From: Spartobacteria bacterium LR76
GTDB taxonomy: Bacteria > Verrucomicrobiota > Verrucomicrobiia > Chthoniobacterales > Terrimicrobiaceae
Direction of reading: 5' to 3'
Assembly (NCBI GenBank): GCA_003054655.1
Contig: QAYZ01000016.1
Coordinates: 1,240,001 to 1,304,000 of the forward strand
Length of the DNA: 64,000 nt
Shown here: positions 22,454 to 57,654 of the stretch, one piece after another
Numbering within the stretch: position 1 is the first letter of the stretch
Layout: the number at the start of each line of letters is the position of its first letter
Made by a program: the position numbers and the translations under genes
Notes under the pieces: model-generated
Seen by the model: the letters and a program-made list of their open reading frames with translations, nothing else
The model's database searches: none
What the model was told of the DNA's origin: nothing

Positions 22454-24220
22454 TCAGGCGGTTTCGTTGTCCTGAAAAAGTTCGTCCTCCTGGTAGGGCT
22501 TCCACCTTGGTCGGCCGATGAAATGGCCTTGCACGCAGGAGATGCCGATCGTGCGGAGCAGTTCCATCTCCTCCTCGGTTTCTACAAACTCGGCCACGGT
22601 CGAGATGTCGAGATTCCTGGCGATGATCTGAAGCGCCTGCAATACCGCCTGGTTGAACGGCTGCCTCGGGAGGTCGCGAACGAAGGCTCCATCGATCTTC
22701 ATGAAGTCGATGGGCAGGGTCTTGAGATAGGTGAGTGAGGAAAAACCGGAACCAAAATCATCGAGGCCAAACTGACACCCGACCTTTTGCAGGCGGGTGA
22801 TGGCACCCGAGGCGTGCTGGAGATTGGGGATGAGCTCGTTTTCGGTGATCTCGAAGAGCACGCGCTCGGGAGCGATGCCCGAGTTGGCCAGCATGCTTTC
22901 GACAAACTCACAGTAGGTCTCGTCACCGAAGAGCGAGCCCGAGATATTGATGGATACGGAGAGTCCCGGAGTCGTCGCCAGAGCCTCAAAGGCCTTGGTA
23001 ATGACAAAGCGATCGAGCTTGGTGGTCTGTCCCGACCGGCGGACCGCAGACAAAAACACCGCCGGATTGACCGGTTCCTCATGCCGCGGGTCCACATACC
23101 GGAGCAGCACCTCGTGAAAGAGTATCCTCCTGCCCTCGACGGAATACACCGGCTGAAACCAGAGCTGGAGAGAGCCATCGCGCATGGCGGTCTTGATGCG
23201 TGACGACCAATCGGTATCCGCAATGAGCTGGCTGATCTCATTGGTCTCGGGACGGTGCACCTCGACACGATTGCGCCCGCGAGCCTTGGCGGCGTAACAG
23301 GCTGCATCGGCATTGGCCATCACCTCCGGCGGAGCGAGCCGACCGTCGATCACAGCCACCCCGACCGAAGCCCCCACGCGGAAGGAACGGTCGCCCGATG
23401 TATAGACGATCTCCTCGACCCGATCGACGATGGATTCGGCGATCTCGCAGGCCTTGGGCAGGTCGCAGGCGGGCAGGATCAGGACAAACTCATCGCCACC
23501 AAAGCGCACGAGGACATCCGAGCGGCGGGTGAGGCTTTTCAAGACCTGGGCGACCTGGAGCAGGAGCTTGTCGCCGGCATCATGACCGAGCGTGTCATTG
23601 ATGATCTTGAAGTTGTCGAGATCAAGATAGAGCACGGCTCCGGGTTCTCCCGTCTTGGCCTTATCGATGGCCAGGGCAAGCGCCGGATCGAGCTGGCTGC
23701 GATTGCTCAACCGGGTGAGCGGATCGTGCTGGGCGAGGAACTTGAGCTGATCCTCAAGCTGCTTCCTGCGGGCGATCTCCTTCACCGCCGCCTCGGCCAC
23801 GGTCAGGCGCACGTCGAGCAGGCCAGGATTGTAGGGCTTGCCGATATAGTCATCCGCGCCGGCATCCAGAATCTCCCGCAAGTCCTCGGGGCGGCTATTG
23901 CCTGTTCCCACAAGGATATAAATATAAGCGCCCTGTGACTGTGATCGCAGCTTGCGGCACAACTCCAGCCCGCTCATGCCGGGCAGTTGAATATCGAGCG
24001 TAATGAGGGGAAAGTCCTCCTTCTCCAGCCGCTCCAAGGCGACCTCGGCGGATTCACAGCCAACCACCTCATGTCCCCGCGAGTGGATGATGCGCTCCAA
24101 AAGCATCCGCGTGGGACGATCATCTTCGACGACGAGAACTTTACAGGCTTGCTGGGAAGAAGAGGGATCCACGCGTACGTCTGTTTGGGGGAGTCTTTCC
24201 CACGCGGCACGCTCAGGCAA
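22454..24220 (-). CDS. Response regulator with GGDEF and EAL domains (c-di-GMP turnover)
   Basis: Start chosen is TTG 24220, 25 bases after the tsaD stop; an ATG at 24340 would overlap tsaD by 95 bases and a GTG at 24172 is also possible. The product (about 588 residues) has a receiver domain with phospho-Asp in TLDIQLPGMSG and Lys in YIGKPYNP, then a GGDEF domain with intact RFGGDEF and an upstream inhibitory RRSD site, then an EAL-type domain. The latter reads EVL instead of EAL but keeps NISG, EITENE, DDFGSGFS, MKID and VQGHFIGRP. Both cyclase and phosphodiesterase residues are present, so it may act in either direction under phosphorylation control. It is last in a long operon. Confidence 0.88.
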   Translation of the reverse strand: MPERAAWERLPQTDVRVDPSSSQQACKVLVVEDDRPTRMLLERIIHSRGHEVVGCESAEVALERLEKEDFPLITLDIQLPGMSGLELCRKLRSQSQGAYIYILVGTGNSRPEDLREILDAGADDYIGKPYNPGLLDVRLTVAEAAVKEIARRKQLEDQLKFLAQHDPLTRLSNRSQLDPALALAIDKAKTGEPGAVLYLDLDNFKIINDTLGHDAGDKLLLQVAQVLKSLTRRSDVLVRFGGDEFVLILPACDLPKACEIAESIVDRVEEIVYTSGDRSFRVGASVGVAVIDGRLAPPEVMANADAACYAAKARGRNRVEVHRPETNEISQLIADTDWSSRIKTAMRDGSLQLWFQPVYSVEGRRILFHEVLLRYVDPRHEEPVNPAVFLSAVRRSGQTTKLDRFVITKAFEALATTPGLSVSINISGSLFGDETYCEFVESMLANSGIAPERVLFEITENELIPNLQHASGAITRLQKVGCQFGLDDFGSGFSSLTYLKTLPIDFMKIDGAFVRDLPRQPFNQAVLQALQIIARNLDISTVAEFVETEEEMELLRTIGISCVQGHFIGRPRWKPYQEDELFQDNETA

Positions 24221-24245
24221 GCACTCACTGCCCCGGCGCGGAGAT

Positions 24246-25247
24246 TTAGGCGGCAGCGAGGCGGGCGTAGTCGAAATTGGGCAGGATGTCGGCAGCGAGA
24301 TCGGTGACGCCTCCCTGCCGATGCGAGGCGGCATATGCAATCATCAGCGCATTGTCTGTCCGCAAAGCCGGAGGAGCCATGCGCCACTCGATGCCAGCAG
24401 AGCGGCAGGCGAGGTCGAGCTTGGCCTGGAGTCGGGAGTTGCTGCTCACGCCTCCGCTCACCGCCAGGAGCGAGCGTCCCTGACGACGTGCCGCAGCCAG
24501 CGCCTTGTGCACCAGCACATCCACCACCGCCTCCTGAAACGAGGCGCAGATGTCCGGCAGATCGGTCGGCTCAAATCCCCGGTCGAGAAAGTATCGCACC
24601 GACGTCTTCAACCCGCTGAAACTGAAGGCAAAATCTCCTGATCCCAGCATGCTCCGCGGAAACTCAAAGCGATCCGGGTTGCCCTCGCGAGCCATCCGGT
24701 CGATCTGCACTCCGCCCGGATATGGCAGGCCAAGGAGCTTTGCCACCTTGTCAAACGCCTCGCCGGCGGCATCATCGAGCGTGCGCCCCAGCAGCCGATA
24801 GTCCCCGTAGCCCGCGACATCGAGCAACATGGTATGCCCGCCGCTTACGACCAGACCGACGTGCGGAGGGATGGTGGACAGGCCAAAAAATGGCGACAGC
24901 ATGTGCCCCTCGATATGATTGACGGCTAGGAAGGGCTTATCGACGCCCATCGCCAGCCCTTTTGCCGCCGAGACTCCCACCAGCAGGGCGGCAGCAAGTC
25001 CCGGCCCGTTCGTGGCGGCAAAGGCGTCGATCTGCTCAAGAGACATTCGGGCCTCGGCCAGGGCTTTTTCCACGAGGCCGGGGAGCAGCGAGAGGTGGTT
25101 GCGCGAGGCGACCTCGGGCACCACGCCGCCATAGGCCGCATGGATGTCCGCCTGGCTGGCGATCTCATGACTCAGGACATCTCCATGACCGCGCAGGATG
25201 GCGACGGCGGTTTCGTCGCAGGAGGTTTCGATGGCGAGAACGATCAC
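24246..25247 (-). CDS. tsaD: tRNA N6-threonylcarbamoyladenosine transferase
   Basis: The start is GTG 25247 (translated VIVLAIETSCDETAV), with AAAGGA two bases upstream and overlapping the protease stop in a GTGA quartet; this gives 333 residues, the family length. The ETSCDETA start, the NHIEGH metal-binding histidines, and VSGGHTMLL and SGGVSSN of the ASKHA fold identify TsaD/Gcp. It transfers the threonylcarbamoyl group to A37 of tRNAs reading ANN codons. Confidence 0.95.
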   Translation of the reverse strand: MIVLAIETSCDETAVAILRGHGDVLSHEIASQADIHAAYGGVVPEVASRNHLSLLPGLVEKALAEARMSLEQIDAFAATNGPGLAAALLVGVSAAKGLAMGVDKPFLAVNHIEGHMLSPFFGLSTIPPHVGLVVSGGHTMLLDVAGYGDYRLLGRTLDDAAGEAFDKVAKLLGLPYPGGVQIDRMAREGNPDRFEFPRSMLGSGDFAFSFSGLKTSVRYFLDRGFEPTDLPDICASFQEAVVDVLVHKALAAARRQGRSLLAVSGGVSSNSRLQAKLDLACRSAGIEWRMAPPALRTDNALMIAYAASHRQGGVTDLAADILPNFDYARLAAA

Positions 25248-37618: not shown

Positions 37619-37624
37619 GAGCGG

Positions 37625-38965: not shown

Positions 38966-38971
38966 CGTCGA

Positions 38972-40870
38972 TTAAGAAGCTGGGGTGATGACTGTCGTGA
39001 TGGTGGCATCGGCGGAGGGTTCCGTAAGTTCGATGCCGAGCCGCCTGACCTGCCCGAAGCGGGACTTGTCCTTGAGCTGCTCAAATTTGACAGAGAACGG
39101 AGCTCCACCCGCGCTGATGGTGACGCGCAGCGTCTGACCGTCCCGGGTGACAAGCCATACCCCGGGCGCCTCCTCCTTTGCCTCTCCGTACGTGGACAAC
39201 CCGGTTCCAAAGGCGATCGGCTTGTCGGCCGTCATGTGATCGGTGACGGTGATCCGTCCGGCTTCGCGGTCGAGTTCGAGGCGACGGGTGAGTTCGTTGA
39301 TGGCGAAAAGATTGTACCCTCCCCGCAGGTTGAGCGTCACGCTGTCCAGCTTGTCCGAAAAACTCTTGTCGACCACTTGAGCGCCGAATGCCGGGCCGTT
39401 GCCCTGCAGCTTCCCGCCGACGACGGGAACAGAATGCCCGTAGGAATTATTGATCGCGCTGTCGTAGCGGTTGGGGCCGTAGATCTGTCCGCCAACATCC
39501 ATCATGCCGGGATCGGTCAATATCAGTTTGCCGTTTAGTGCGACCACGAACTGGCCGAGATCGTTGTGAGAATGAGCGATTCCGTTGTTACCGCCCTTCA
39601 TCGCCACCCCGAGGGACGGGGTGGCTCCCGGTGCCGTGCGAGCCACCAGCACCTGATTGTTCTCAAACCAGTCCCGGAGCGGGCGCGGTTCGGGCTGGGA
39701 AGCTGCACTCTCGGCTGTAAAGCCAAGATTCACACCCCAGGCGTAGAGGAAGTTGTAAAACGTGCCATCCAGAACCAGGGATCTTTTGGTGCGCAGTCCG
39801 ATGCCGAAGCGAGAGCTCAGGATGTTATAGATCCAGGTGGGCTGCTGCTCATAGAGCTGGCAGTCGCCGAAGGCCGGATAGATGCCCTCCGCCACGTCAA
39901 AGCGAAGCGGAAACTCCGCGAGCTTGCGGGCGACGGGGTCCTTCAGCAGGTCGATCCTGCCATTCGTGGCGGAGTACACCGTCTCGGCCATGAGGATGAA
40001 ATGGCCAAAGCCATACTTCCAGTACCCCATGCCCTCATGGGAGTAGCCATCCGCAGCGAAGCCCCCGAGGTAGAACGGCGTCTCGGAAATGGCAACGGCC
40101 AGAACCTCCGCACGTTCTGCGCGGGAGTCCACCGTGGTCAGCGCAGAACCAACGATGCCGGCATGCACGACGGCGTTCCAGTTGTTCTCATTCGTACGCC
40201 ACCAGTCTTTTTTCAGCGAAGCATCGCGGGACTGATCGAGAAAGGGAGTGATGACCCGCCGGGAGATATTTTCCTGAACCGTCTGCCTCAGGCTATCGGG
40301 CATGCGGTCGCCCAGCATCCCGATGGCGGTGGCAAGACTCCACGAGGTCATGGCCGACCCGAGGTCGTTGCTGCCGGTGAAGGACTGGTGGGCGGGAAAA
40401 ACCCAACTACGCTCTCCGCAGATCGTTTCGATCTCCTTGAGGATCGCCGGGACGTATTTCCCCTGGTTCTGCATGCCCTCGGAGAGCATGAGAACCGCGA
40501 GTCGGTTGCGCCGCAGATCGAGCACCTTCTCAACCTTGCGGTCCTTCGTGCGGATCGCCTCATCCCACTGGGCATCGGTCACCTCGGGAATCGGCTGCGT
40601 CAGCATGTAGTCAGCACGCTTGATCGTGGCATCGCGAAACTCGGTATCGGCCGCAAGCTTGTCCCAGGGAGCGCGATTATCGAAGGGCGGGGCAAAGGTC
40701 TGAGGCTTCTCCGGCAGCATCGCCTGGATCTCTGCGATGCGCGGCGCAAGCGAGGCGCTCAGGGAAACCTGGGGAGCAGCGGAAGGGGCCTGCTGGCCGC
40801 GTACAAAATCCGCTACAAGCAGTGAGGCCGCAGCCAAGGGGAATATCAACAGCGTCGGGGGACGTCTCAT
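38972..40870 (-). CDS. Secreted heparinase II/III-fold polysaccharide lyase
   Basis: The 632-residue protein has a signal peptide, an alpha-toroid half (residues about 60-380) and a beta-sandwich half beginning at HSHNDLGQFVVALNGKLILT, the family hallmark with the His-Asn-Asp loop and the DPG turn. Relatives include uronate-containing polysaccharide lyases such as PL12, PL15 and PL17 (oligoalginate). The substrate cannot be read from sequence; the Alg8-like synthase 6 kb away makes an alginate-like substrate an interesting guess. Confidence 0.8.
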   Translation of the reverse strand: MRRPPTLLIFPLAAASLLVADFVRGQQAPSAAPQVSLSASLAPRIAEIQAMLPEKPQTFAPPFDNRAPWDKLAADTEFRDATIKRADYMLTQPIPEVTDAQWDEAIRTKDRKVEKVLDLRRNRLAVLMLSEGMQNQGKYVPAILKEIETICGERSWVFPAHQSFTGSNDLGSAMTSWSLATAIGMLGDRMPDSLRQTVQENISRRVITPFLDQSRDASLKKDWWRTNENNWNAVVHAGIVGSALTTVDSRAERAEVLAVAISETPFYLGGFAADGYSHEGMGYWKYGFGHFILMAETVYSATNGRIDLLKDPVARKLAEFPLRFDVAEGIYPAFGDCQLYEQQPTWIYNILSSRFGIGLRTKRSLVLDGTFYNFLYAWGVNLGFTAESAASQPEPRPLRDWFENNQVLVARTAPGATPSLGVAMKGGNNGIAHSHNDLGQFVVALNGKLILTDPGMMDVGGQIYGPNRYDSAINNSYGHSVPVVGGKLQGNGPAFGAQVVDKSFSDKLDSVTLNLRGGYNLFAINELTRRLELDREAGRITVTDHMTADKPIAFGTGLSTYGEAKEEAPGVWLVTRDGQTLRVTISAGGAPFSVKFEQLKDKSRFGQVRRLGIELTEPSADATITTVITPAS

Positions 40871-40916
40871 TTGTCCAGCACCCTCTCTCTCCCTTACCCT
40901 GTGAGCAAAAGGATAA

Positions 40917-40936
40917 GCATTCTAATTATCGAATGC
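40917..40936. promoter_or_regulatory. Palindrome upstream of the lyase gene (possible operator)
   Basis: GCATTC-N8-GAATGC lies about 47 bases upstream of the lyase ATG, in the 100-base gap after the beta-helix gene. Spacing and symmetry would suit a LacI-type operator or a weak terminator. No matching copy was found near the LacI gene itself. Confidence 0.3.
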
Positions 40937-40970
40937 CCTCATGTACCCGTCAACCTCCGGGGTTCGGGCC

Positions 40971-42443
40971 TCATTGGCCGAGACGGTCGTGCAACTGCGC
41001 CCGGTAGAGGCTGGTAGGCGTCGCATGGATTCCCCGGAGATCCCAGTTGGCATTCCCCGAAACGGCTCCCACACAGCCGATCGCCCAGTTCTGCGCTGTC
41101 GGGGGATTTTCGCAAACAAACCGGTCGGCGGAACAATTCCAGAGAACGCTGTTGGCACCGGTCCATCCCTGTCCGGTGCCGAGGTTTCCGCGATTGCGAA
41201 TGTTCAGTTCATTGCCTCGGACCGTGACATTGTCGAAGAGCATTCCGCAGGACCAAAGCAGATGCGGCCCGCTGTCGGCCTGCGCCCGCTCGGCCGTGCA
41301 ATCGAGGAACACATTTGGCCCCGGGGTGAGTCCGCCAAAGACAAAGTCGTGCCGCCCATCCGCGCTGTAGCAGTCCCGCACCAGACAAAGCTGACCGCTG
41401 ACGGCAAAGGCATAGCGGCGTCCACCCTGGATGAGGGAAACCGGCTCCAGCGATTTTGCGCGTTCCACCGTGATGGCCCGGGCAAATTTGCCCAACTGCA
41501 CACAGGCGTAACCAAAGTGGGTGGCCGAGACATCCCGCACCCAGCCATCGGCCACATTGTTGAAGGCGATGAACGTCCAGCCATGCCGCTCGTCCGTCGG
41601 ACCATCATAGAGGCTGTCGCCACGCAGGTTCTCGACGCCCACCTCGCGAATTCGCTCCAGATCATGGCGAAAGATCACGCCTCCACCAAACGCGGCATCC
41701 AGAGAATTGCAGATAGGGGCGTCGACGGTGATCTGGTTGCCGGTGATGGCGGTAATCACCCGATCAAAATGGAGATTTCTATGCCCTGGCTCCCACTGAA
41801 CCACCTCGCCTCCATCGGACCTGGGCGGAATCGAGTCCATGCCGATGGCATGAATCCACTCCGCCGTACTGGGGCGCTGGATCACAACGGAATCGCCAAC
41901 CTGGTATCGGGATGCGTCCTTCACGGAAACTATGGTCGCGCCCACCGGCACGTAGGCATCGAGAATTTTCTGCCATGTGCCGGAAACGGGTTTCCAGGTC
42001 GTCGGCAGGTTATCCGTGCCGATCTCGATCAGGGAATACTGGCTCCTGGCGGTGGCGAGAAGTACGGTGCCATCCGCCTCGCTCCCCTCGCCCCGCAGCA
42101 CGATGCCGCTCGCCGAAATACGCAGCGTGCGGCTGAGTCGATACTCGCCCTTGCGCAGGAGCAGCGCCCCACGGAAACCGGAGGCGTCCGGCGCTCGCGC
42201 GGCGATCACATCGATGGCGGCCTGCACGCGATCCGAAGCATCGCCGGGAGCAGGTGCCAGCGTGGCCACCACGGGCACAGTGGGAATCTCCACCTCTCCC
42301 CGGCGGTAACCGCACATGGAGAAATCGGGGATGCGATTGCCTCGGTCGTCCGCCGCATATTGCAGCCGCCCATCCGGCCCCGGCCAGACATACCGGCTGG
42401 TTTCGGCTCCGCAGGCGGCTCCCACTGCGACCCCAACTGCCAT
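40971..42443 (-). CDS. Secreted right-handed beta-helix protein (pectate-lyase-like)
   Basis: From ATG 42443 the product is 490 residues with a short signal peptide (MAVGVAVGAACGAETS). An alternative ATG at 42596 gives a longer, basic n-region (VNFRRAAVLMAVGV) but overlaps the divergent outer-membrane gene. A Pectate_lyase_3-like start (ASDRVQAAIDVIAARAPDA, GALLLRKGEYRLSRTLRI) leads to repeated turns of a beta-helix (NNVADGWVRDVSATHFGYA, LVRDCYSADGRHDF). The catalytic triplet of AlgG epimerase (DPHDRS) is absent. Likely a polysaccharide lyase or hydrolase; substrate unknown. Confidence 0.7.
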   Translation of the reverse strand: MAVGVAVGAACGAETSRYVWPGPDGRLQYAADDRGNRIPDFSMCGYRRGEVEIPTVPVVATLAPAPGDASDRVQAAIDVIAARAPDASGFRGALLLRKGEYRLSRTLRISASGIVLRGEGSEADGTVLLATARSQYSLIEIGTDNLPTTWKPVSGTWQKILDAYVPVGATIVSVKDASRYQVGDSVVIQRPSTAEWIHAIGMDSIPPRSDGGEVVQWEPGHRNLHFDRVITAITGNQITVDAPICNSLDAAFGGGVIFRHDLERIREVGVENLRGDSLYDGPTDERHGWTFIAFNNVADGWVRDVSATHFGYACVQLGKFARAITVERAKSLEPVSLIQGGRRYAFAVSGQLCLVRDCYSADGRHDFVFGGLTPGPNVFLDCTAERAQADSGPHLLWSCGMLFDNVTVRGNELNIRNRGNLGTGQGWTGANSVLWNCSADRFVCENPPTAQNWAIGCVGAVSGNANWDLRGIHATPTSLYRAQLHDRLGQ

Positions 42444-42540
42444 CAGGACCGCTGCGCGACGAAAATTGACTCGCCAAGCAGGCCGCCCGGGGATACATCG
42501 CCGAAATCCCGTCTCGCGCGGCGCTGAACCGTTGCACTCC

Positions 42541-44127
42541 GTGAAAGCACTCCGTTTCCTGCATCCATACCGCCTCGCTATCGCAACCAGTCTCATGTTG
42601 ACCTCCTGCATGGTGGGTCCCAACTTTTCTACGCCTGAGGCGCGGATTCAAGGAAAGTGGAAGAAATACGACGGGGTATCCGACAGGCCGCCGGTTGACA
42701 TCGACCGGTCGTGGTGGAAGCAATTCCACGATTCCCGGCTGGACAGCCTCGTTGACACAGCCTACCGGAACAACCCCAGCCTGCAGGCCGCCGGCACGCG
42801 CATCCTCGGCGCCCGGGCGGAGCTCAACCAGAGCGTGGGCAACCTCTTTCCGCAGAAGCAGGATCTCATCATCCAGGGCCGGGGCAACATCGCCTCCGAC
42901 CCGAACAACATCTGGACTCCCTCCGGTCTCAACGAGGACTACCTCTCGACCCAGGCACTGGTGTCGGTCTCTTGGGAAATCGACTTCTGGGGCAAATATC
43001 GCCGCCAGATTCAAAGTGATCGTGCCGGATATCTGGCGACCATCGCAGCCTATGATTCCATCCTCGTGACGCTCGTCGCGGACGTCGCCTCGACCTACGT
43101 CAACATCCGCACTCTCCAGGCTCGTCTGGCGGTCAACCGCGCCAATATCGCCCAGCAGAAAAAGAGCGTGGAGGTCGCCATGGCCCGGCGTACGGCAGGT
43201 CGCGTGGGCGATCTCGACGTCGAGCAGGCCAAGGCTCAACTCGCCACGACCGAAGCCGATGGACCGTCCATCCAGACCGCCTTGCAGCGGGCGATCGACG
43301 GTCTGGCCGTGCTCCTCGGCGAGACGCCAGCCGAAGCCGAGCGCCGGGTCGGTAATTCCGGATCGATCCCCACCCCGCCGTCGAATCTCGCTGCCGGGGT
43401 GCCAGCCGACCTCCTCCGCCGCCGCCCCGATGTTCGTCAGGCCGGTCTGGAGGCCGCCTCCCGCTCTGCCCGCATCGGCGTGGAGTTTGCCAAGATCCTG
43501 CCCTCGTTTTCGCTCAACGGCACTTTCGGCTACACCGGGGGGAGCGAGAGCGTTTCCTTATCCAATTTCTTCAACTGGCAGCAGGCCGCGGCGAACTCTG
43601 CCGGTTCCCTCGTGGTCCCCATCTTTAATTACGGGCGCCTCGTCAATCAGGTACGAGTCACGGACGCCTCGTTCCAGGAGGGATTGTTCAACTACCAGCA
43701 TGCCGTGCTGAATGCCCAACGCGAGGTCCAGGATGCGCTGGCCGATTATGTGAACAGCTCCCGCCGGGTCGCCCAGCTACAAGCCGCCGTCAAAGCCGCG
43801 TCCAGCGCCGTTCAAATCGCGAACCTCCAGTATGAGCTCGGCACAGCCGACTATGCCCGAGTCCTCACCGCCCAGAGCCAGCGCCTCGCTGCGGAGGACG
43901 CACTGGCCCAGGCCAAAGGGCAGTATGCCAACAGCCTCATCGCCGCCTACCGGGCCATGGGCGGTGGCTGGGAGTTGCGCAACGAGGCTGGCGTAATCTC
44001 CCCAGCGACCCGCGCCCAGATGGCCAGCCGCACAAACTGGGGTAACTTGCTGGAAATCAACCAGCATCTCCCGCCGAATGCGGAGTCTGCCCCCACTCCG
44101 GGCGCAGCATCTCAGCCTGCTCGATAA
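42541..44127 (+). CDS. NodT-type outer-membrane efflux lipoprotein
   Basis: The start is GTG 42541 (VKALRFLHPYRLAIATSLML), giving 528 residues. The lipobox is LTSCMVGPNF, the hallmark of OMF proteins in the RND NodT group. Two OEP domains with long helices follow (GARAELNQSVGNLFPQKQ; RRPDVRQAGLEAASRSARIG). It would form a trimeric outer-membrane channel. No membrane-fusion or RND pump gene is next to it. The coiled-coil gene follows 70 bases downstream. Confidence 0.9.
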   Translation: MKALRFLHPYRLAIATSLMLTSCMVGPNFSTPEARIQGKWKKYDGVSDRPPVDIDRSWWKQFHDSRLDSLVDTAYRNNPSLQAAGTRILGARAELNQSVGNLFPQKQDLIIQGRGNIASDPNNIWTPSGLNEDYLSTQALVSVSWEIDFWGKYRRQIQSDRAGYLATIAAYDSILVTLVADVASTYVNIRTLQARLAVNRANIAQQKKSVEVAMARRTAGRVGDLDVEQAKAQLATTEADGPSIQTALQRAIDGLAVLLGETPAEAERRVGNSGSIPTPPSNLAAGVPADLLRRRPDVRQAGLEAASRSARIGVEFAKILPSFSLNGTFGYTGGSESVSLSNFFNWQQAAANSAGSLVVPIFNYGRLVNQVRVTDASFQEGLFNYQHAVLNAQREVQDALADYVNSSRRVAQLQAAVKAASSAVQIANLQYELGTADYARVLTAQSQRLAAEDALAQAKGQYANSLIAAYRAMGGGWELRNEAGVISPATRAQMASRTNWGNLLEINQHLPPNAESAPTPGAASQPAR

Positions 44128-44196: not shown

Positions 44197-45987
44197 ATGT
44201 CGATGAACTCAGCCCAGCAGGTCGTCAACACCCCTCCGCCCGTCGCCGTCGACGAGCACGAAGCCTTTCAGCGTGCCAGCGAGGAGATCTCGGGGTACTT
44301 CCAAAACCAGCAGGTTTCCTTCGCCGACTACATGGCGGTCATCAGCGACCTCCGCCGCTCCGGACGGCGCCCGGATACCATCGCCATCAGCCAGGGATTG
44401 AGGGAACTCGCATCGACCGAGGGTCGGGAATCCCGCCGCAAGCGCAATGAGAATCGCGAGAGCAAGATCGTCCATCTCACCGCGCACGAGACCCCGGATG
44501 GCGAAAACCTCGCCCGCCGCGTTCACCAGTACGAGTCGGATCTCGAGGAGGCGACCCGGCAGGTCGAGGCGTCCAATACCCTTCGCGCCGAGATCGAGGA
44601 ACTGCGCAGCGAACTGGCCGCAGCTTCCCGCCGCGAAAGTGAACTCACTGCCGCCCTGCGCGCCGCCGAGGCCAAGTCCGGACAGGAAGCCTTTCTCCAG
44701 CAGGAGCTGAACCGGCTCAAGACCCTCATCACCAACCGCGATGCCCGGACGGATTTTGAGTTTGTCCGTGGTCGTTCGACATCGGTATCGCTCCCCATGG
44801 AAACCGAGGCGCTGCATCGCGAGATCACGCGCCTCCGCGAAGCCCTCGACGAGGTGCTCGCGATGGAGGAGTTTTTCCGTCAGAAGTGGGAGCAGGTTTC
44901 CGGCGACGTGGAATGCATGTCCGTCCTGGAAGCCGAGATTTCCTCCCTCTCCGGCATGCTGGAGGAGGCCCGTCTCCGCGAGCAGGAGCTGACTGCCCGC
45001 CTGGAGGAGTCCCAAGGCACGTCGCACTCTCTGGAGGAACTCACCTCGCGCCTGAGCGAGAACGAAGCCCTGATCGCCCAGCTCCGCAATCGCGAAGCCG
45101 CCTGGGTGGAGGAACGCGAGCAGGAAGCTGCCCGCACTCAGAAGACTCTCGAATCACTGCGCCATGACCTCGAACAGGCCCAACTGGCCGTGGCCGACGC
45201 CGAGCAGCGTGAGGCCGATCTCCAGAACCGGCTGGCCGAGTTGCACGCAGTACCCCCGGCTGTCTCGCCCGATGGAGAGTCGGAACGTCTGGCCGGTGAG
45301 CTGACTGCCGTGCGCCAGGATCTCGCGGAGAAAGACGCACGCTGCCTCGCCCTTGAGTCGCGTATTGACGAACTCCTCCCAACGGTTTCCGCCTACGATG
45401 AGCTCTATCAGCGGCACGCCCAGTTGTCCTCGCGGCTGGAGCGGCTCCCGGCCCTGCATCAATCGGCCCAAGCCGTCCGCTCCACGCTTTCCCGCATCGC
45501 TCCGATGAGCCAGGCGCAGACGGTGGAGTCCCCGCTGGATGCCGTGGAATCTCTCGCCGTCACCCTGGAGACAGTCCAGGCTGCCGCGGCGCAATGCGAA
45601 TCCGAGTTTGCCGCGCTGCGCGACGCGCTGGCCGCCTCCCAGCAGGCCCCGGTCGTCAGCGAGACACCCTCCCCGGCGGTTTCCACCGAGGCAAAGGCTC
45701 CGAGCCTTCCGCCCGCCGCCCAATCCGCAGATCTCAAGCGCATTCTCGTCGAAGTGGTCGAGGTCGAGCTGGAAAAGCAGCGCAAGGCCAATGCCTCACT
45801 GGCCAGCCGCGAAATCGCCCTCCGCTCCCGCCTGGAAACAGCCAAGCCCCGCTCGATCGAGGCTCGCACGGCTGAGGAGGAACTCCACGGCCAGGCGACC
45901 TTCCGCAACGACATGAAGCAGCGCGCAGATACGCTCTCGGAGTTGCTGCGCACGCTGGTGGCCAGCCTGCGCGACGCCTCGGTTTAG
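44197..45987 (+). CDS. Long coiled-coil protein of unknown function
   Basis: The 596-residue protein has no signal peptide or membrane helix. A short folded amino-terminal part (residues 20-95, ISGYFQNQQVSFADYMAVIS) is followed by extended heptad-rich coiled coil rich in Glu, Leu, Ala and Arg from about residue 105 to 345 and again near 520-590. No known motif was recognised. It may be a cytoplasmic filament or scaffold. It is downstream of the outer-membrane protein and ends convergently with the Alg8-like gene. Confidence 0.75.
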   Translation: MSMNSAQQVVNTPPPVAVDEHEAFQRASEEISGYFQNQQVSFADYMAVISDLRRSGRRPDTIAISQGLRELASTEGRESRRKRNENRESKIVHLTAHETPDGENLARRVHQYESDLEEATRQVEASNTLRAEIEELRSELAAASRRESELTAALRAAEAKSGQEAFLQQELNRLKTLITNRDARTDFEFVRGRSTSVSLPMETEALHREITRLREALDEVLAMEEFFRQKWEQVSGDVECMSVLEAEISSLSGMLEEARLREQELTARLEESQGTSHSLEELTSRLSENEALIAQLRNREAAWVEEREQEAARTQKTLESLRHDLEQAQLAVADAEQREADLQNRLAELHAVPPAVSPDGESERLAGELTAVRQDLAEKDARCLALESRIDELLPTVSAYDELYQRHAQLSSRLERLPALHQSAQAVRSTLSRIAPMSQAQTVESPLDAVESLAVTLETVQAAAAQCESEFAALRDALAASQQAPVVSETPSPAVSTEAKAPSLPPAAQSADLKRILVEVVEVELEKQRKANASLASREIALRSRLETAKPRSIEARTAEEELHGQATFRNDMKQRADTLSELLRTLVASLRDASV

Positions 45988-46001: not shown

Positions 46002-47486
46002 CTAGCTCAGTACGAGCAGGGCAACGATCAAGCCGAATATCCCAAACCAAAGCGTCGTCTGGAGCGCCCCAAATCGATCCTGCATATTGCGGGCATCGCC
46101 GCGGGCAGCGCCCCATTTTTGACGCCGCAGATCGCTGAAGGTCTGGATCTTGATGAATGACCCGACCCACTGCTGGTAAAGCAGGAGCGGCAGATCCCAG
46201 TTGCTCATACGATGTCCCTCGACGACGAGAGCGCATAGGTAAATCAACCGCGTATAGAGCACCCAAAGGGCGAAGTAGACGACCACAAATGGCGACTCGG
46301 TAAAAATGAGGATGAGCACGCCCGTGGGCAGCACGAGACTCGTCCACATGGAGATGCGCTGATCGAGCAGCGAGAACCAGGCAAACAAACCGACTTTGTT
46401 CCACCCGAGAGCCAGGGCGCGGCCGTTGTTTCGCAGCATGTTGCCGAACCACCGACGCATCTTGCCCACGCTCTCGCGGAAGGGTTTGTCCCCGGCGTTC
46501 TCCAGGCAGTAAATGTAGGTATCGGGGAGATAGAGCATCTCCCAGCCGTTTTTCAGCAGCGTGAACCACGTGCTCTTGTCGTCGCCGGTCTTGAATTCGA
46601 TGCGGCCATAGACCCAGTCATCGATCGAGTCTTTCTCCACGCGCTCGATGAATTCATCCGAGAGCGCGATCTCGGACCGGATGAACGAAAACCGCCCGGT
46701 GAGCGTGAGCACCTTGCCCGACAGGCTGGTCGAGCACATATAGCGGTTGCGCAGGGAGAAGCGGAGCGTATACCAGTCGCGATACCATTGCGGGCCGTTG
46801 GTCACGGCAATGTTATTGGTGGTTATGCCGCCCACCTTGGGGCGGAGGGCGAAGAATGGGAGAGACTTGCGCAGAATGCCGCTGCCGAGCAGCGTATCGC
46901 CATCCATGAGGATGACCACGCTGCTGGGTTCGCCGAGATTCGTCCGGGCTGCCGCCCTTAAGGCAAAAGCCATGCCGTAGCGCTTGCCCGCCTGCCGCAT
47001 CATGTAGACGGAAAGGCGGGGGTTCGGCGGACATTTCGCCAGGACGTCGCGCACGATCACGTCCTCGTCCGGGCCGCCCGTGGTGATGTAAAGCCTCACC
47101 AGTGAGGGAATCGACGCCGCCTCTCTCGTGACCGAAATAAGCATTTCCTTTGTCACCCACGGCTTTTCCTTGAAGGTCGGGATGATGAAATGAACCTGCT
47201 CGGGATAGGGTTGCTGGATCGCATCAGCAGCCCGCCTCATGCGCGGAAAGGCGACGAACCGATACATGTACGAGCGCACGAGGTTCACCGTCAGCCAGCC
47301 GTAACGAAACAATCCGAGGGCACCGAGTGCAAGGATGCCGCCCCGGCTTCCCTTTTGGTGCTCGACCTGCTGAAAAAGGAACCAGAGGACGACGATGAAG
47401 AAGCCGTAGATGAGCAGCGGCATCAAGACCGTCCGCCAAGGCACGCGCTCGGCTCCCGGCTCGGGCAGAACGATCTCGCTCCGCAT
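46002..47486 (-). CDS. Alg8-like processive glycosyltransferase (family 2)
   Basis: The 494-residue membrane protein resembles Alg8, the mannuronan synthase of Pseudomonas, over its length. Shared landmarks include KRYGMAFALRAAAR, LMDGDTLLGSGIL, GGITTNNIAV, DWYTLRFSLRNRYMCS with VLTLTGRFSFIRS, TGDDKSTWF and MRRWFGNMLRNNGRALALG. The DGD, GDDK and RRW elements form the GT2 polymerase active site; terminal membrane helices form the translocation path. It lies three bases after the PilZ/Alg44-like gene. The polymer is unknown but an alginate-like one is the closest precedent. Confidence 0.82.
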   Translation of the reverse strand: MRSEIVLPEPGAERVPWRTVLMPLLIYGFFIVVLWFLFQQVEHQKGSRGGILALGALGLFRYGWLTVNLVRSYMYRFVAFPRMRRAADAIQQPYPEQVHFIIPTFKEKPWVTKEMLISVTREAASIPSLVRLYITTGGPDEDVIVRDVLAKCPPNPRLSVYMMRQAGKRYGMAFALRAAARTNLGEPSSVVILMDGDTLLGSGILRKSLPFFALRPKVGGITTNNIAVTNGPQWYRDWYTLRFSLRNRYMCSTSLSGKVLTLTGRFSFIRSEIALSDEFIERVEKDSIDDWVYGRIEFKTGDDKSTWFTLLKNGWEMLYLPDTYIYCLENAGDKPFRESVGKMRRWFGNMLRNNGRALALGWNKVGLFAWFSLLDQRISMWTSLVLPTGVLILIFTESPFVVVYFALWVLYTRLIYLCALVVEGHRMSNWDLPLLLYQQWVGSFIKIQTFSDLRRQKWGAARGDARNMQDRFGALQTTLWFGIFGLIVALLVLS

Positions 47487-47489
47487 TTG

Positions 47490-48761
47490 TCAGTCGAGCA
47501 ACGTGCTCTCCGGCGTCGTACCGAGGGAGCGCGTCGGCTCCGCGTCGAAACGCTGAAGCAGCTTGGACTCGTAAATCAGATTGCCGCTTTTCACCGCGTT
47601 CACGTTATCGTTGAGAAGCTTCAGAGTCTCGGTCAAACGATCCTCCTCCAGCTTCATGAGGGCGACGTCGCGGCGCATGAGGTCGATCTGGTTTTGCGGG
47701 AAACCTGCCCTGGGGCCGGCCTCGTCGACTCGCTTGAGCATCTTTTCCAGCGTCTCGCGCCGGACACGGGTGGATTCCAGCGAGGACTCGGCCTGCTTTA
47801 CCCGAGCCTCCGCGATGATGAGGTACTTGTCGAGTTCCGCAGGCTTCTCCTTGCCCATCTGGTCGATGAACCCGAGGTCCTGAAGCATCTTCGTCAGGAA
47901 TGGAGCGGGATCGGGACGTTCCAGCCAGTTGGGATTCGTGAACGCCTTGGGCAGGAAAAACCGGCTGGCAGAGGCATTCTCGATTTCGCTCTCCATGAAA
48001 GCGACGCGCTTTTGCACGACATCGCGCTCCTGCTCGAGACGCTTGAGACCTCCCTGCAGGAGTTTCACCTGCTGGTTGGCCAGCTTCGCGCCATCGCGCA
48101 TGCCGCTGCCGAGCACCTCGTTGACATTGTGAATTCGCTCCTCCAGCTCAGAGAGAGCCGCTTTCTCCGCCAAAAGACGGGTACGGGCCTCCAGAACAAA
48201 GTCCGCACGGGAAAGCGCGCGCGCCTTCAGCCCTTCAAAAAGACCGGGCATCCAGATCAACAGCACCGCCAGCATCGCGACCAGCAACCCGGCCACGACC
48301 AGACCCCGCCGCATCCAGGGAGTCAGCCGGAAGCGCTTCTTCTCCGGCTCAGCGGGTTCCAGGATGGACTCCGGCGGCGGATCGGTGGCGAGAGTGATCT
48401 TGCCCGCTTTTTCGAGATCGTCGACAGAGGCAGGCTCTCCTCTCATCACGGTATCGGCAAAAAAATGAAGGATGCCCCGCTCTCTCGGCGGCATGTCGAC
48501 AAACTGGCACCCGCAATCCCTGCCCTGCCAGCGCACAGGCTGGATCTGCACCGGCAGCATGTAGATGCCATCCGTGCAGGGGACCAGAAGCTCGCCCGCC
48601 TCGATCACATCGCGGCGCAGGATATCCGGATCGGCCTCCACCAGCATGCCGCCAGGCGACCAGTTCTTCACGGGCAGGACCTTTCCACCAATGCTCACCG
48701 TCATCGGCGAGGTCAATCGCCGGTACTTGCGCGCACAGTTGGGTTCCGCCTGAATGTTCAT
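47490..48761 (-). CDS. Alg44-like PilZ-domain membrane protein
   Basis: From ATG 48761 the product is 423 residues. The amino-terminal PilZ domain keeps the c-di-GMP-binding motifs: R-x3-R in CARKYRRLTS and N-x-S-x2-G in KNWSPGGMLVE. A single membrane helix (GLVVAGLLVAMLAVLLIWM, about residue 165) leads to a periplasmic coiled-coil region. This is the layout of Alg44, which activates Alg8 when c-di-GMP binds. The periplasmic part here is coiled coil and lacks a clear HlyD-like barrel. Adjacent to the Alg8-like gene. Confidence 0.82.
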   Translation of the reverse strand: MNIQAEPNCARKYRRLTSPMTVSIGGKVLPVKNWSPGGMLVEADPDILRRDVIEAGELLVPCTDGIYMLPVQIQPVRWQGRDCGCQFVDMPPRERGILHFFADTVMRGEPASVDDLEKAGKITLATDPPPESILEPAEPEKKRFRLTPWMRRGLVVAGLLVAMLAVLLIWMPGLFEGLKARALSRADFVLEARTRLLAEKAALSELEERIHNVNEVLGSGMRDGAKLANQQVKLLQGGLKRLEQERDVVQKRVAFMESEIENASASRFFLPKAFTNPNWLERPDPAPFLTKMLQDLGFIDQMGKEKPAELDKYLIIAEARVKQAESSLESTRVRRETLEKMLKRVDEAGPRAGFPQNQIDLMRRDVALMKLEEDRLTETLKLLNDNVNAVKSGNLIYESKLLQRFDAEPTRSLGTTPESTLLD

Positions 48762-50859: not shown

Positions 50860-51822
50860 ATGGCACTCCCGCATTTCCAAGGCATCTTCCCTCCCCTCGT
50901 CACCCCGCTCTCCGCACCGGACAAGCTCGATGTTGCGGGCCTGGAGCGCTTGATCGAACACGTCCTCTCCGGCGGCGTGCATGGGCTCTTCATCCTCGGG
51001 ACGACCGGCGAGGCTCCCAGCCTGGACCATAATCTCCGCAAGGAGCTGATCCAGCGCACCTGCCGTCAGGTGCGGGACCGCGTGCCGGTATTGGTCGGCA
51101 TCACCGATACGGCGATCGTCGAGGCCAAGGAAATGTCACGCCTCGCGGCGAACTACGGAGCCTCCGCCGTGGTGCTCGCCCCTCCCTACTACTTTCCGAA
51201 CAGCCAGACCGAACTCGTCGAGTACATCGAGCGTCTCGCTCCGGCGCTGCCGCTGCCTCTGGTGCTCTACAACATGCCGACGCACACGAAGACGATGTTC
51301 GAGCTCGACAGCCTGCAGCGGCTGATGGAGGTGGATAACATCATCGGCTTCAAGGACAGCTCGGGAAACATGGTGTATTACCACCAGGTGCTCTCCTCCC
51401 TATCCATCCGCCCGGACTGGTCGGTGCTGATGGGACCCGAGGAGCTGCTGGGCGAGGCGGTGCTCTTTGGCGGGCATGGCGGCGTCTGCGGCGGCGCAAA
51501 TCTCTGCCCGCAGCTCTACGTCGACCTGTACGAGGCGGCGCGATGGCGCAATATCGAGCGCGTCCTCGATCTGCACCATCGCGTGATGCGTATTTCCTCA
51601 ACCATCTATCGCGTGGGCAAGTACGGCTCGTCCTTCATCAAGGGGCTGAAGTGCAGCCTGAGCCTTCTCGGCATCTGTGATGATTTCATGTCGGAGCCAT
51701 TTCATCGCTTTTACGACGTCGACCGCGCGAGGCTGCATGAACTGCTCGAGGAGCTGGGCGTGACGGTTTCCAATCCCTATCCCGCCTCCGACGAGGCCAT
51801 TGTGACGGGCCTGATGCGCTAG
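50860..51822 (+). CDS. Dihydrodipicolinate synthase / N-acetylneuraminate lyase family protein
   Basis: The 320-residue TIM-barrel protein keeps family residues: the carboxylate-binding loop ILGTTGEAPSL, catalytic Tyr in VLYNMPTHTK and Schiff-base Lys in IGFKDSSGN. Members include DapA, sialic-acid aldolase (NanA) and keto-deoxy-sugar aldolases. In a locus with sialidase-fold proteins and a sialate esterase, an aldolase for a nonulosonate or sugar-acid substrate seems more likely than lysine synthesis. That is inference from context. Confidence 0.85.
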   Translation: MALPHFQGIFPPLVTPLSAPDKLDVAGLERLIEHVLSGGVHGLFILGTTGEAPSLDHNLRKELIQRTCRQVRDRVPVLVGITDTAIVEAKEMSRLAANYGASAVVLAPPYYFPNSQTELVEYIERLAPALPLPLVLYNMPTHTKTMFELDSLQRLMEVDNIIGFKDSSGNMVYYHQVLSSLSIRPDWSVLMGPEELLGEAVLFGGHGGVCGGANLCPQLYVDLYEAARWRNIERVLDLHHRVMRISSTIYRVGKYGSSFIKGLKCSLSLLGICDDFMSEPFHRFYDVDRARLHELLEELGVTVSNPYPASDEAIVTGLMR

Positions 51823-51826
51823 AGCC

Positions 51827-53692
51827 TCAGGGCTTGAGCAGCGAAACGCCCAGGATGCCAAGCGTGGTGGACTGCGCCGCGTCGGCTGTCACCTCGATAT
51901 GGGTGATCGCGCCATCCGGCGAGGGGTTGATCCACTCGAGAGTATAGAGAAAGACATGGCGGCGGATCGCGTCGGCCGAGCCATCCTCCAGCATCGGGGC
52001 AAAGCGGGAGTGCTGAAAGTCGAAATGCGGGTAGTCCGACCACCAGTCCTGAATATTGGCCGTCTGCAGCGCCTGCTTCATCTCGCCCGGCGTGATCTCC
52101 GGCGGCGGCTTCCCGAGTGAAATGATCGGCACCTCGCCCAGTTTCTTCCTGCCGTTGTAAAATGTGTAGACCGCGAAGCGGTTCAGAAACTTTGAGTAGC
52201 CGCAGGCGTGCAGGATATAGATGGCGCGGGCGGGCTGGTCGATGCGGCAGGCCACCTTGCTCGGCAGCTTGCGGGCCTTCCCCACGGAGTTGACCAGCGA
52301 TTGGAGAACGATCACGCCGCAATCCTTCCGGTTGTTCCCGCCCTTGACCTGAAAGGGGATGCCGTGAATGGTGTGCCGGCCCGGTTTCAGGTTTCGCAGC
52401 GGCAAATCGCCAAACCACCCGCGCCGGAAGTTGATGGGGCGGTTGACAAAATCGCTGATATCGATGGTGGAGAACCGGCTCTCCGGCACATGCGCGCAAC
52501 TGTCGTACGGACGCAGCCATGCCATCTCCACGTCCGCCTCCAGGCCGGGGTCGAATCCCCGCGTGTCGCCCGAGCGCGCGGCAAGGGCGTTCTTGGAGAG
52601 CGTCGCCCGCGAGCCGGGTGCGAAAGTGGTGGACTCCCTCAGTACCAGCTCCTGCTCGAGCCGCATCACCGAGGGGCGAGGCAATACACCGGTCTGCGCC
52701 TTGAGCGCCTGGGCGCGGCGCAGCAGGAAATACACCGTTTCGTGCAGGAGAGTGACATCGATGGCGGTGGAACTGACCGAGGGCGAAGAGACGTGCAGCG
52801 CGTTGAAGTCCCCGAGGAAAACCACCGAGAGCCGCGACGGGACCTTCACGCCGTTGCGGGAGAGTTCGTCGAGGAAGTGCTGGATGGAGTATTCCTTGTC
52901 GGTGTAGACGACGAGGGCCGTGCAGTCCTTCCAGTCGCCCTTGAGCTGGCGGGCGAGCTTCTGGATCTCCTCGGGCATGAGTTTCATGCCGGAACCGGGA
53001 ATGAAACGATCCTCGGAGGAGGTGAAGCGGTACTTGCGGCACAGCCAGCGCCACTGGGAAAGAACGCCCATGGAGGCCGAGGTGCGCGGCGACAGGGCCA
53101 TGAGTGCCATGTCGGTGTGCCCGAGATCGGTCATCTGACGAAAGATCACCTCGAGGGCTTGATCGTCGTCGCCGATGACGGAGGAGATATTGCGCACGCG
53201 GTGGCCCACGCACACGACGGGGATGTCCTGGTCGGCGAGCTTCGACGCGACTGTCTCCCACGCGGCGGAGTACGCCTCGGAGGGAGGAGCAAAGACCACA
53301 CCGGGAGAGCGCTCATGCAGCAGACGCTTGAGGATGGCGACGAGCTCCTCGGTGGAATCCCACGGGTAGATCGTGGCCTGAATGCCCATCTCCTTGGCCA
53401 CCTTGCGATAGCTCGGCAGATAGATGGACCGGCGCGCGACCACGACATCACACGGATAGAGACTTTTCTCCGGTGCTCGTTTTCCCGCGATGAAGAGCTT
53501 GTATCCCTGCCGGTCGACCATGCCCTGGAGGGCGAGATTGGTCATCGCGCGATTCAGCGCATAGTAGCGGATGCCGAGCTGACCGCTCAGGATGCGAACC
53601 GAAGGAAGACGGGATCCCGTGGGCAGGCCGCACGCTCCCAGCCACTCGCGGAGACGATCCTCCGCCTCTTTGACATCGTGCCCGCAACTCAT
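51827..53692 (-). CDS. GntR/LacI-type regulator with extra C-terminal jelly-roll-like domain
   Basis: The 621-residue protein starts with a GntR winged helix (LPTGSRLPSVRILSGQLGIR, then NLALQGMVDRQG), followed by a LacI-type effector domain (residues about 75-375). An unusual ~215-residue carboxy part begins near IDISDFVNRPINF and includes RGWFGDLPLRNLKPGRHTI and HGIPFQVKGGNN. This pattern is like beta-sandwich sugar-binding modules in secreted PVC-group glycosidases. It is convergent with the lyase gene and divergent from the PEP-CTERM gene. It probably senses a glycan product; the extra domain may be a second sensor. Confidence 0.8.
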   Translation of the reverse strand: MSCGHDVKEAEDRLREWLGACGLPTGSRLPSVRILSGQLGIRYYALNRAMTNLALQGMVDRQGYKLFIAGKRAPEKSLYPCDVVVARRSIYLPSYRKVAKEMGIQATIYPWDSTEELVAILKRLLHERSPGVVFAPPSEAYSAAWETVASKLADQDIPVVCVGHRVRNISSVIGDDDQALEVIFRQMTDLGHTDMALMALSPRTSASMGVLSQWRWLCRKYRFTSSEDRFIPGSGMKLMPEEIQKLARQLKGDWKDCTALVVYTDKEYSIQHFLDELSRNGVKVPSRLSVVFLGDFNALHVSSPSVSSTAIDVTLLHETVYFLLRRAQALKAQTGVLPRPSVMRLEQELVLRESTTFAPGSRATLSKNALAARSGDTRGFDPGLEADVEMAWLRPYDSCAHVPESRFSTIDISDFVNRPINFRRGWFGDLPLRNLKPGRHTIHGIPFQVKGGNNRKDCGVIVLQSLVNSVGKARKLPSKVACRIDQPARAIYILHACGYSKFLNRFAVYTFYNGRKKLGEVPIISLGKPPPEITPGEMKQALQTANIQDWWSDYPHFDFQHSRFAPMLEDGSADAIRRHVFLYTLEWINPSPDGAITHIEVTADAAQSTTLGILGVSLLKP

Positions 53693-53694
53693 CC

Positions 53695-53708
53695 CGATTT
53701 TTTAAATA
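53695..53708. promoter_or_regulatory. AT-rich block at the regulator start
   Basis: CGATTTTTTAAATATT lies immediately upstream of the regulator ATG (53692) and resembles the blocks at 49940 and 53867. It may be an autoregulatory site or simply a -10-like region. Confidence 0.3.
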
Positions 53709-53815
53709 TTATGATGAGCATTTGCAAGACACGAGATCGTGAGGGCTGGCGTGGTTAATAATGCAGGCTGCCCGGCGGCTCCTGAGGGCATCGATCTTCG
53801 GCTTCAGCCCGCAAA

Positions 53816-53849
53816 GGACTTCGCGCAGTGAGGGCGCAGGGTGAAGTCC
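53816..53849. repeat. Inverted repeat in the regulator/PEP-CTERM divergent gap
   Basis: GGACTTC and GAAGTCC are perfect seven-base arms about 20 bases apart, midway in a 284-base divergent promoter region. It could be an operator or a hairpin. Confidence 0.35.
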
Positions 53850-53866
53850 GCGCGAGGGGTGGTCTG

Positions 53867-53890
53867 AAATTTTTAAAAAACCGGCATGTG
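53867..53890. promoter_or_regulatory. AT-rich block upstream of the PEP-CTERM gene
   Basis: AAATTTTTAAAAAACC followed by CATGTG at 53885 resembles the block at 49940. It lies about 90 bases before the start of the plus-strand gene and may be a shared regulator site. Confidence 0.35.
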
Positions 53891-53976
53891 TTTTGCCAGA
53901 GCTCCCGGGATTGCCGTTCCGAGACGAAGGGGAAGGAATTATTCAGGCTTCAACCACCTCCACCCCCGAAATCATC

Positions 53977-55470: not shown

Positions 55471-55503
55471 ATTGAACCGCGATAAGCCAACGAGCCATCC
55501 TGC

Positions 55504-56688
55504 ATGCAGCAGTCCTTCCAAAAGCCTCCGGGAACAATCATTCGGCACCAGCCTGCCGTCTCCGGCCTCTTCCTTGGTTCTCCGAGCATCGCGATCCTGG
55601 AGGATGGCACGTATGTCGCATCGCATGATTTCTTTGGCCCGGGGTCCCGGGAGCACGAGCGCGGCGGCACGGTAATCTATCGCAGTGAAGATCGCGGCCT
55701 CACCTGGGGGCAGGCGGCGGCGATTGAGGGGGCCTTCTGGTCGGGGCTGTTCGCGCACAAGGGCGCTCTCTACCTGATGGGGCTGACCTGCCATCACGGT
55801 CTGCTGGTGATCCGGCGGAGCGATGACGGCGGGCGCAGTTGGACGTCGCCGGTCGATGAGCGATCGGGGCTTTTGACGCCGGAGGGGCTGTATCACACCG
55901 CGCCGATGCCGGTGATCATCCACTCCGGCAGGATCTGGCGGGCCATCGAGGACGCGGGGAGTGGCACGGCCTGGGGACAGCGTTATAATCCGATGCTGAT
56001 CTCCGCACCCGTCGGAGCCGATCTGCTGAACCGTGCAAGCTGGACGTTTTCCTCCATGCCGGTGCAGTCCCCAGACTGGCTTCAGGGAGCATTCGGAGGC
56101 TGGCTCGAGGGAAATGCCGTCACGCTGGACGACGGTCGCATGGCCAACCTCCTGCGCGTCCATCATCCGCGGGGGGAGAAGGCTGCGCTCGCCATCCTGG
56201 CCCCGGATGGTCACACGCTGACCTTTCGCCCCGAACGCGACATGGTCGAACTGCCGGGAGCCGCGACGAAATTTGCCGTGCGCAAAGATCCCGTATCCGG
56301 CGCATGGTGGACGCTGGCCAATGCCGTGCCGCCCAGGCACGCGCAGGACAAGGACCATCACACGCAGATCCGCAATACGCTCGCCCTGCTGCGCTCGACG
56401 GATCTCCGTCATTGGGAAATGCGGCACATTCCGCTGTATCACCCCGACTCCGCGCGCCATGGGTTTCAATATGTCGACTGGCTCATTGAAGGTCGCGACA
56501 TCGTCTTCGTCTGCCGCACGGCGTGGGAGGATGCCTACGGCGGCGCGCGCAATGAGCACGACGCCAACTACCTGACATTTCACCGCATCCGCGACTTCCG
56601 CGATGTCGGTTTGAAAGATTCTCCCTTTGACCCGTTCCAGCCGGAATCGGCTGCGCCCGCCCCTCAGCTTGAGCCGCAGGCGGCCTGA
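55504..56688 (+). CDS. Sialidase-fold protein (BNR/Asp-box)
   Basis: The 394-residue beta-propeller protein has Asp-box motifs YRSEDRGLTWGQ and RRSDDGGRSWTSP and an early FLGSPSIAILEDGTYVAS, as in the exo-alpha-sialidase superfamily. No signal peptide is visible (start MQQSFQKPPGTIIRHQ), implying a cytoplasmic protein. True sialidase activity needs an arginine triad that cannot be confirmed by eye. It is 33 bases after the PEP-CTERM gene. Confidence 0.8.
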   Translation: MQQSFQKPPGTIIRHQPAVSGLFLGSPSIAILEDGTYVASHDFFGPGSREHERGGTVIYRSEDRGLTWGQAAAIEGAFWSGLFAHKGALYLMGLTCHHGLLVIRRSDDGGRSWTSPVDERSGLLTPEGLYHTAPMPVIIHSGRIWRAIEDAGSGTAWGQRYNPMLISAPVGADLLNRASWTFSSMPVQSPDWLQGAFGGWLEGNAVTLDDGRMANLLRVHHPRGEKAALAILAPDGHTLTFRPERDMVELPGAATKFAVRKDPVSGAWWTLANAVPPRHAQDKDHHTQIRNTLALLRSTDLRHWEMRHIPLYHPDSARHGFQYVDWLIEGRDIVFVCRTAWEDAYGGARNEHDANYLTFHRIRDFRDVGLKDSPFDPFQPESAAPAPQLEPQAA

Positions 56689-56696
56689 AGCAGGCC
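56682..56696. terminator. Compact hairpin between convergent genes
   Basis: GGCCTG-AAG-CAGGCC overlaps the end of the sialidase-fold gene and lies in the 11-base gap to the convergent gene at 56700. It may act as a bidirectional stop; no T-run. Confidence 0.35.
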
Positions 56697-56699
56697 TCG

Positions 56700-57647: not shown

Positions 57648-57654
57648 GGGGGAT

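Follow-up and report, generated by a model that had tools for sequence, protein, structure and literature searches.

The genome of Spartobacteria bacterium LR76 contains two adjacent genes that resemble an alginate polymerase in a non-Pseudomonas background, which raises the question of what polymer such a pair would make and by which route it would leave the cell. Both genes are located in the 64,000-nucleotide stretch analysed here, referred to as the window. The Pseudomonas counterparts, Alg8 and Alg44, are described as a c-di-GMP-regulated inner-membrane complex (PMC8461298).

The gene at 46002..47486 (minus strand) encodes a GT2 polysaccharide synthase of 494 residues, and the open reading frame and motifs reported in an initial annotation of the window were confirmed: DxD as D195-G-D197, GDDK as G301-D-D-K304 and RRW as R344-R-W346. 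In Pfam the protein matches general GT2 models alone, the best being Glyco_tranf_2_3 (6.7e-29). As a reference for Alg8 and Alg44 we used L080, a nine-gene alg stretch of Pseudomonas agarici whose genes we take, from their order, to be AlgD, Alg8, Alg44, AlgK, AlgE, AlgG, AlgX, AlgL and AlgI. The window GT2 is 37% identical to the Alg8 of this operon over 428 residues (278 bits). The initial annotation had allowed for a likeness limited to general GT2 motifs; this fails because the match spans 428 residues and extends past the catalytic domain. By sequence, the window GT2 is a member of the Alg8 superfamily. Its predicted structure (pLDDT 90.8) is closest to the solved folds of hyaluronan synthases, with those of cellulose and chitin synthases next, and PDB sequence searches using the GT2 alone, a 4-row profile or a 38-row profile gave no match at the cut-offs applied.

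Counting the source genome each time, 4 of 58 relatives and 3 of 387 genomes sampled across the phylum carry the synthase. Three members of the genus have an intact frame, 97-99% identical to the window GT2, and the next closest relative is the synthase of genome G033, at 60%. Related loci were collected by a scan of public genomes, with the best 80 of at least 577 retained, and 95 GT2s were placed in a tree with a BcsA-like outgroup using a quick LG+G4 search. The window group and a planctomycete group together form a 14-row clade (SH-aLRT 99), separate from a 51-row clade that holds Pseudomonas Alg8 and the Halomonadaceae; the root of the tree is unsure because the outgroup branch is very long. 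Three cyanobacterial members of the family (L010, L014 and L023) carry a C-terminal extension that, by eye, resembles a beta-helix.

The stop codon of the partner gene (47490..48761, minus strand, ATG at 48761) lies 3 bp ahead of the GT2 start. This gene encodes an Alg44-like co-polymerase with a PilZ domain, one transmembrane helix and a periplasmic coiled coil. The alg44-like gene thus precedes the alg8-like gene, the reverse of the Pseudomonas order, and of the alginate-polymerase layout first proposed it is the combination of an Alg8-family synthase with an Alg44-like PilZ subunit that stands, not the gene order. PilZ was not called in a Pfam scan of the window partner, nor was the partner listed in a genome-wide PilZ search, where the sole protein was another one, in a BcsA-like synthase gene. 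The solved Alg44 PilZ domain is matched at 1.8e-28 by a profile built from 18 partners, among them the window protein and Alg44s of Pseudomonas. Using hhalign, a window-group profile (four sequences) was matched to an Alg44-type profile (six sequences) at 96.9% (E 1.4e-10), in an alignment that covers the PilZ domain, linker and membrane helix only. Alg44 PilZ chains are also the best PDB matches of the partner fold model (TM 0.85 by target length), although this is not independent because the model's alignment contained Alg44 sequences; block pLDDT is mostly 88-96 for PilZ, and the periplasmic part is modelled with low confidence. The partner is, as judged from its sequence, homologous to Alg44 over the PilZ domain and transmembrane helix.

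The PilZ motifs noted in the initial annotation, R-x3-R (RKYRR) and N-x-S-x2-G (NWSPGG), are kept in 3/3 genus members; the G033 partner has K in place of the first R of R-x3-R. R-x3-R and [DN]WS also occur in the L063 clade (4/4) and in L090. This combination was not found at the expected position in the planctomycete partners, and c-di-GMP gating may therefore be lost in that clade. The partners of the window group continue beyond the membrane helix as a conserved coiled coil. In agreement with the earlier reading of a coiled-coil protein without an obvious HlyD barrel, no HlyD or lipoyl domain was recognised by Pfam-type scan in the window partner or in L089, while HlyD_3 was found in eight other scanned partners (L007, L008, L009, L010, L012, L063, L090 of genome G415, and P. 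agarici Alg44, which also matches PilZ). A regular expression for the two lipoyl halves was dropped, both being present in just 7/88 partners. Other domain arrangements were seen in the family: a cyanobacterial Alg44-like partner (L010:7655-9781) has an EAL domain before the HlyD part, replacing PilZ; an Acidobacteriales partner (L012:7113-9863) has PilZ (slightly under the Pfam cut-off), HlyD and an alginate-lyase domain (PF05426) in a single polypeptide; and L034, L043, L057 and L083 have two consecutive Alg44-like genes ahead of the synthase.

Profiles for the other alginate genes (AlgK, AlgE, AlgX, AlgG, AlgL and AlgI) gave no match in window positions 34001-60000, as expected from the earlier remark that AlgE, AlgK, AlgX and AlgG are not adjacent to the pair. 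ALGX was not found above cut-off in the window genome or in 10 other genomes, with a match below cut-off in G001; the P. agarici control was positive, with ALGX copies downstream of AlgD. The UDPG/GMD dehydrogenase family has one match in the window genome, 28% identical to AlgD over 382 residues. Running the AlgD query on 12 further genomes, with P. agarici as the control, gave nothing above 37% save P. agarici's own AlgD: two other genus members reached 30%, the other eight relatives 26-37%, and G033 gave nothing at E 1e-10. The matches in G437, G438 and G1030 (36-37%, the level of P. agarici's second copy) were left unassigned because dehydrogenases encoded beside Alg8-like genes can score about as low, at 37-38% for the weakest. 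Since the sole dehydrogenase is so distant from AlgD and ALGX was not found, alginate is an unlikely product in the window genome. The case against any uronate is less strong: as G033 gave no AlgD match, a hexose or hexosamine polymer fits better, with UDP-Glc, UDP-GlcNAc or GDP-Man a likelier donor than a uronate precursor. The initial proposal of a new uronate or hexosamine polymer thus holds as regards a non-alginate product, with the uronate the less supported half. Cellulose is not favoured either, as the genome has a separate locus that, from sequence reading, we take to be BcsA-BcsB-cellulase-like, although this is not proof. The residue aligned with window position 225 was considered as a marker of the donor. 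Among chosen loci it is E in 15/15 whose dehydrogenase is AlgD-like and N in 15/15 whose dehydrogenase is Halomonas-type; it is N in the window group (4/4) and planctomycete clade (10/10) and E in the L063 clade (4/4). It was not relied on, the rows being hand-picked and the clades non-independent.

A possible exit channel, absent from the initial annotation, is encoded close to the pair. The gene at approximately 42541..44127 (plus strand) specifies a NodT/TolC-type outer-membrane factor (OMF; TIGR01845, 4.5e-90) with a lipoprotein-like N-terminus (LTSC), position 42541 being the likeliest of several start codons. It lies on the strand opposite to the pair and about 1.9 kb from the GT2 gene, with one gene between. 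This intervening gene (44197..45987, plus strand) encodes a 596-residue coiled-coil protein which, among the loci compared, occurs only in the three genus members. Among the OMF neighbours that were scanned with Pfam there is no RND, ABC or HlyD-type gene. On its other side, the minus-strand genes at 35688-42527 encode a LacI-like regulator (named by sequence reading), an AXE1 esterase, a weak heparinase II/III match and one protein without a Pfam match, a set that looks like polysaccharide breakdown. Elsewhere in the window, 50860-59082 holds a DHDPS-family gene and two BNR-repeat (sialidase-like) proteins, one below the Pfam cut-off, and 53893-55470 a repeat-rich protein that appears by eye to end in a PEP-CTERM-like anchor. 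The only GGDEF match in the assembly is a REC-GGDEF-EAL protein (22454..24340, minus strand) about 22 kb from the pair, a candidate source of c-di-GMP for it.

We compared the surroundings of 95 Alg8-family loci, partly drawn from the best 80 of at least 577, using an OMF profile. An OMF is found near the pair in 17 of the 95: 3/3 loci of the window genus, 10/10 of the neighbouring planctomycete clade (L007-L009 and L110-L116, L007 being from a Rubripirellula strain) and 4/4 of the clade around L063, which comes from a metagenome-derived genome labelled Cyanobacteria. The 78 other loci, mainly from the same best 80, gave none (0/78); in 55 of them the sequence covers 6 kb or more to each side of the GT2, and the 78 include planctomycete L035 and L058 as well as the same-phylum relatives L089 and L090. 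The profile recovers 26 of 30 loci with a Pfam-found OEP, some of which count one gene twice, and 4 of the 26 had been used to build the profile. For the two clades outside the genus, searches with the clade's own synthase show that 9 of 241 genomes (E 1e-90) and 4 of 382 (E 1e-60) carry it, and an OMF is present in 13/13. The gene is placed differently in each group: it adjoins the partner divergently in the planctomycete loci, stands ahead of the partner in the same orientation in the L063 clade, and lies past the synthase in the window genus. The pair also occurs in G033, the closest relative beyond the genus, there with no OMF within 19.9 kb, and no OMF was found in the 13-kb contig of G415. 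On the GT2 tree the OMF label requires three changes, the simplest account being two gains with one loss. No match to AlgD, AlgE, AlgK, AlgX or AlgL was found in the stretches of the 17 OMF-linked loci (0/17), and an AlgD/Ugd-type match is present in 55/78 loci without an OMF; among the linked loci, L112 has an AlgG-like match beside the GT2 and L111 an AlgI-like match about 3 kb from the pair. The recurring linkage of an OMF gene with an Alg8/Alg44-like pair in three clades is new here. Searches of an open-licence library found no report of it, the matching titles being on chitin synthases and on a food Pseudomonas.

With six OMF genes in 4.75 Mb (a grouping of 11 matches), chance proximity in the window amounts to approximately 0.5-1%, by arithmetic made after the fact; the three genus members represent a single event. 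In an OMF tree of 30 rows, excluding the fragment L143, the window OMFs join those planctomycete OMFs that are unlinked (84/92) rather than the linked planctomycete ones. The tree lends no support to a close shared origin of the linked OMFs as a whole, and the placement therefore points to separate OMF recruitment or to coincidence in the window. As a trait, OMF linkage is well supported in two related clades, while the case for the window is weak to moderate.

The partners were also inspected for signs of contact with an OMF. An RxxxLxxxxxxS/T-like motif is described for the hairpin tip of TolC-binding adaptors (PMC3391258), and on this model we devised, after viewing the sequences, a hairpin-tip pattern, with rows that are related and expected values obtained by shuffling. 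The pattern occurs in 7/17 OMF-linked partners (1.3 expected) and in 0/34 from loci with an AlgK or AlgE match (2.2 expected; 0/24 with AlgK, 2.0 expected, and 0/10 with AlgE, 0.2 expected). It was also found in 4/18 dehydrogenase-only loci (1.6 expected) and in 7/19 other loci (1.1 expected), five of these seven being cyanobacterial. RxxxLxxxxxxS alone was rejected as a class marker, since it separates poorly (OMF-linked 5/17, 2.0 expected; others 6/19, 2.1; dehydrogenase-only 4/18, 2.3; with AlgK 2/34, 3.7) where the longer pattern did separate. The longer pattern was not found in the window partner, whose one RxxxLxxxxxxS match directly follows the membrane helix and is not conserved in L088.

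From these comparisons we infer a route that runs from c-di-GMP binding and polymerase activity through the product to use of the OMF. The pair would constitute an inner-membrane, c-di-GMP-gated synthase of the Alg8/Alg44 type. Binding of c-di-GMP by the partner PilZ domain would switch the synthase on, and the GT2 would polymerise a cytoplasmic nucleotide sugar into a non-alginate chain and thread it across the membrane through a channel of its own. The chain would then exit by the nearby NodT/TolC-type OMF, reached by the partner's periplasmic part and acting in place of AlgK/AlgE. We regard this account of a gated synthase, a non-alginate polymer and a TolC-type exit as evenly balanced between right and wrong. 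Somewhat more tentatively, this could be a previously unrecognised branch of the Alg8/Alg44 family that forms a synthase-adaptor-OMF machine in which sensor, adaptor and co-polymerase are one protein and a TolC/NodT channel exports; it would probably have arisen at least twice, with a bare coiled coil in the window genus.

The most serious competing explanation keeps the gated synthase and assigns the NodT-type OMF to an unrelated efflux system that is near by chance, the polymer exiting otherwise or staying cell-bound. We consider this a real possibility, though a lesser one. The 1.9-kb gap with a gene between, the opposite strand, the OMF-free stretches of G033 and G415, the separate placement of the window and linked planctomycete OMFs in the OMF tree and a partner without recognised adaptor domains all speak for it. 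Against it, the linkage recurs in two separate GT2 clades and in none of the 78 other loci (mainly from the best 80 of at least 577), and the Pfam-scanned neighbours of the OMF include no RND, ABC or HlyD-type gene.

It is unlikely that the pair is a true alginate or other polyuronate synthase whose precursor and export genes are elsewhere in the genome. Kinship to Alg8 would fit such a role, as would the PL14 lyase gene adjoining the GT2 of the cyanobacterial relative L014, the AlgG-like match beside the L112 GT2, and a UDP-glucose-dehydrogenase-like gene that adjoins a UDP-glucuronate-decarboxylase-like gene in the window genome (names by sequence reading). However, the distant sole dehydrogenase, the low or missing AlgD-query matches in the genus, G033 and the eight other relatives, and the absence of ALGX from the window genome, with a positive control genome, argue otherwise. 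A degenerate or inactive remnant is very improbable: while the patchy distribution and the missing lipoyl/HlyD part might be seen as decay, the GT2 frame is open in all three genus genomes, and the catalytic and PilZ motifs are kept. We retain the c-di-GMP-gated synthase with a proposed OMF exit as the best reading.

Compared with Pseudomonas Alg8-Alg44, the window pair has a GT2 of the same superfamily and a partner homologous over PilZ and the membrane helix, but differs in its gene order, in the lack of a detected AlgD-like gene, in a partner without lipoyl/HlyD domains and in the NodT-type OMF nearby. BcsA likewise is PilZ-regulated and its GT2 fold is among the best matches; however, its PilZ domain is in the same chain as the synthase, whereas that of the window is on a separate partner. 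The BgsA/BgsB system, likened here by description only, reportedly makes a linear mixed-linkage beta-glucan and is activated by c-di-GMP; BgsB is membrane-fusion-like. The closest precedent is the XcsA-XcsB-TolC model for cyanobacterial cellulose, in which a GT2 synthase, an HlyD-like adaptor and TolC are proposed to act together (PMC12430437). By its description that model lacks experimental validation and its genes are scattered and not in one operon (PMC12430437). XcsA is a named cellulose synthase carrying its own PilZ domain, in contrast to the PilZ-bearing partner of the window and the physically linked OMF of its relatives. A cyanobacterial genome paper also describes alg8 homologues and alg44-like genes lacking PilZ, but did not find a clear pathway for a synthase (PMC4971617).

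The TolC route is one way in which polymers made by a synthase could cross the outer membrane in the absence of a porin such as AlgE or BcsC, and loci that encode an OMF together with an Alg8-like synthase and its PilZ-adaptor offer a compact test of it. If the model is correct, a TolC/NodT-type channel would export a long polysaccharide in place of a dedicated beta-barrel and TPR scaffold, and the adaptor of the window genus would have shed its lipoyl and barrel domains. Such loci point to c-di-GMP-controlled polymers outside the Proteobacteria.
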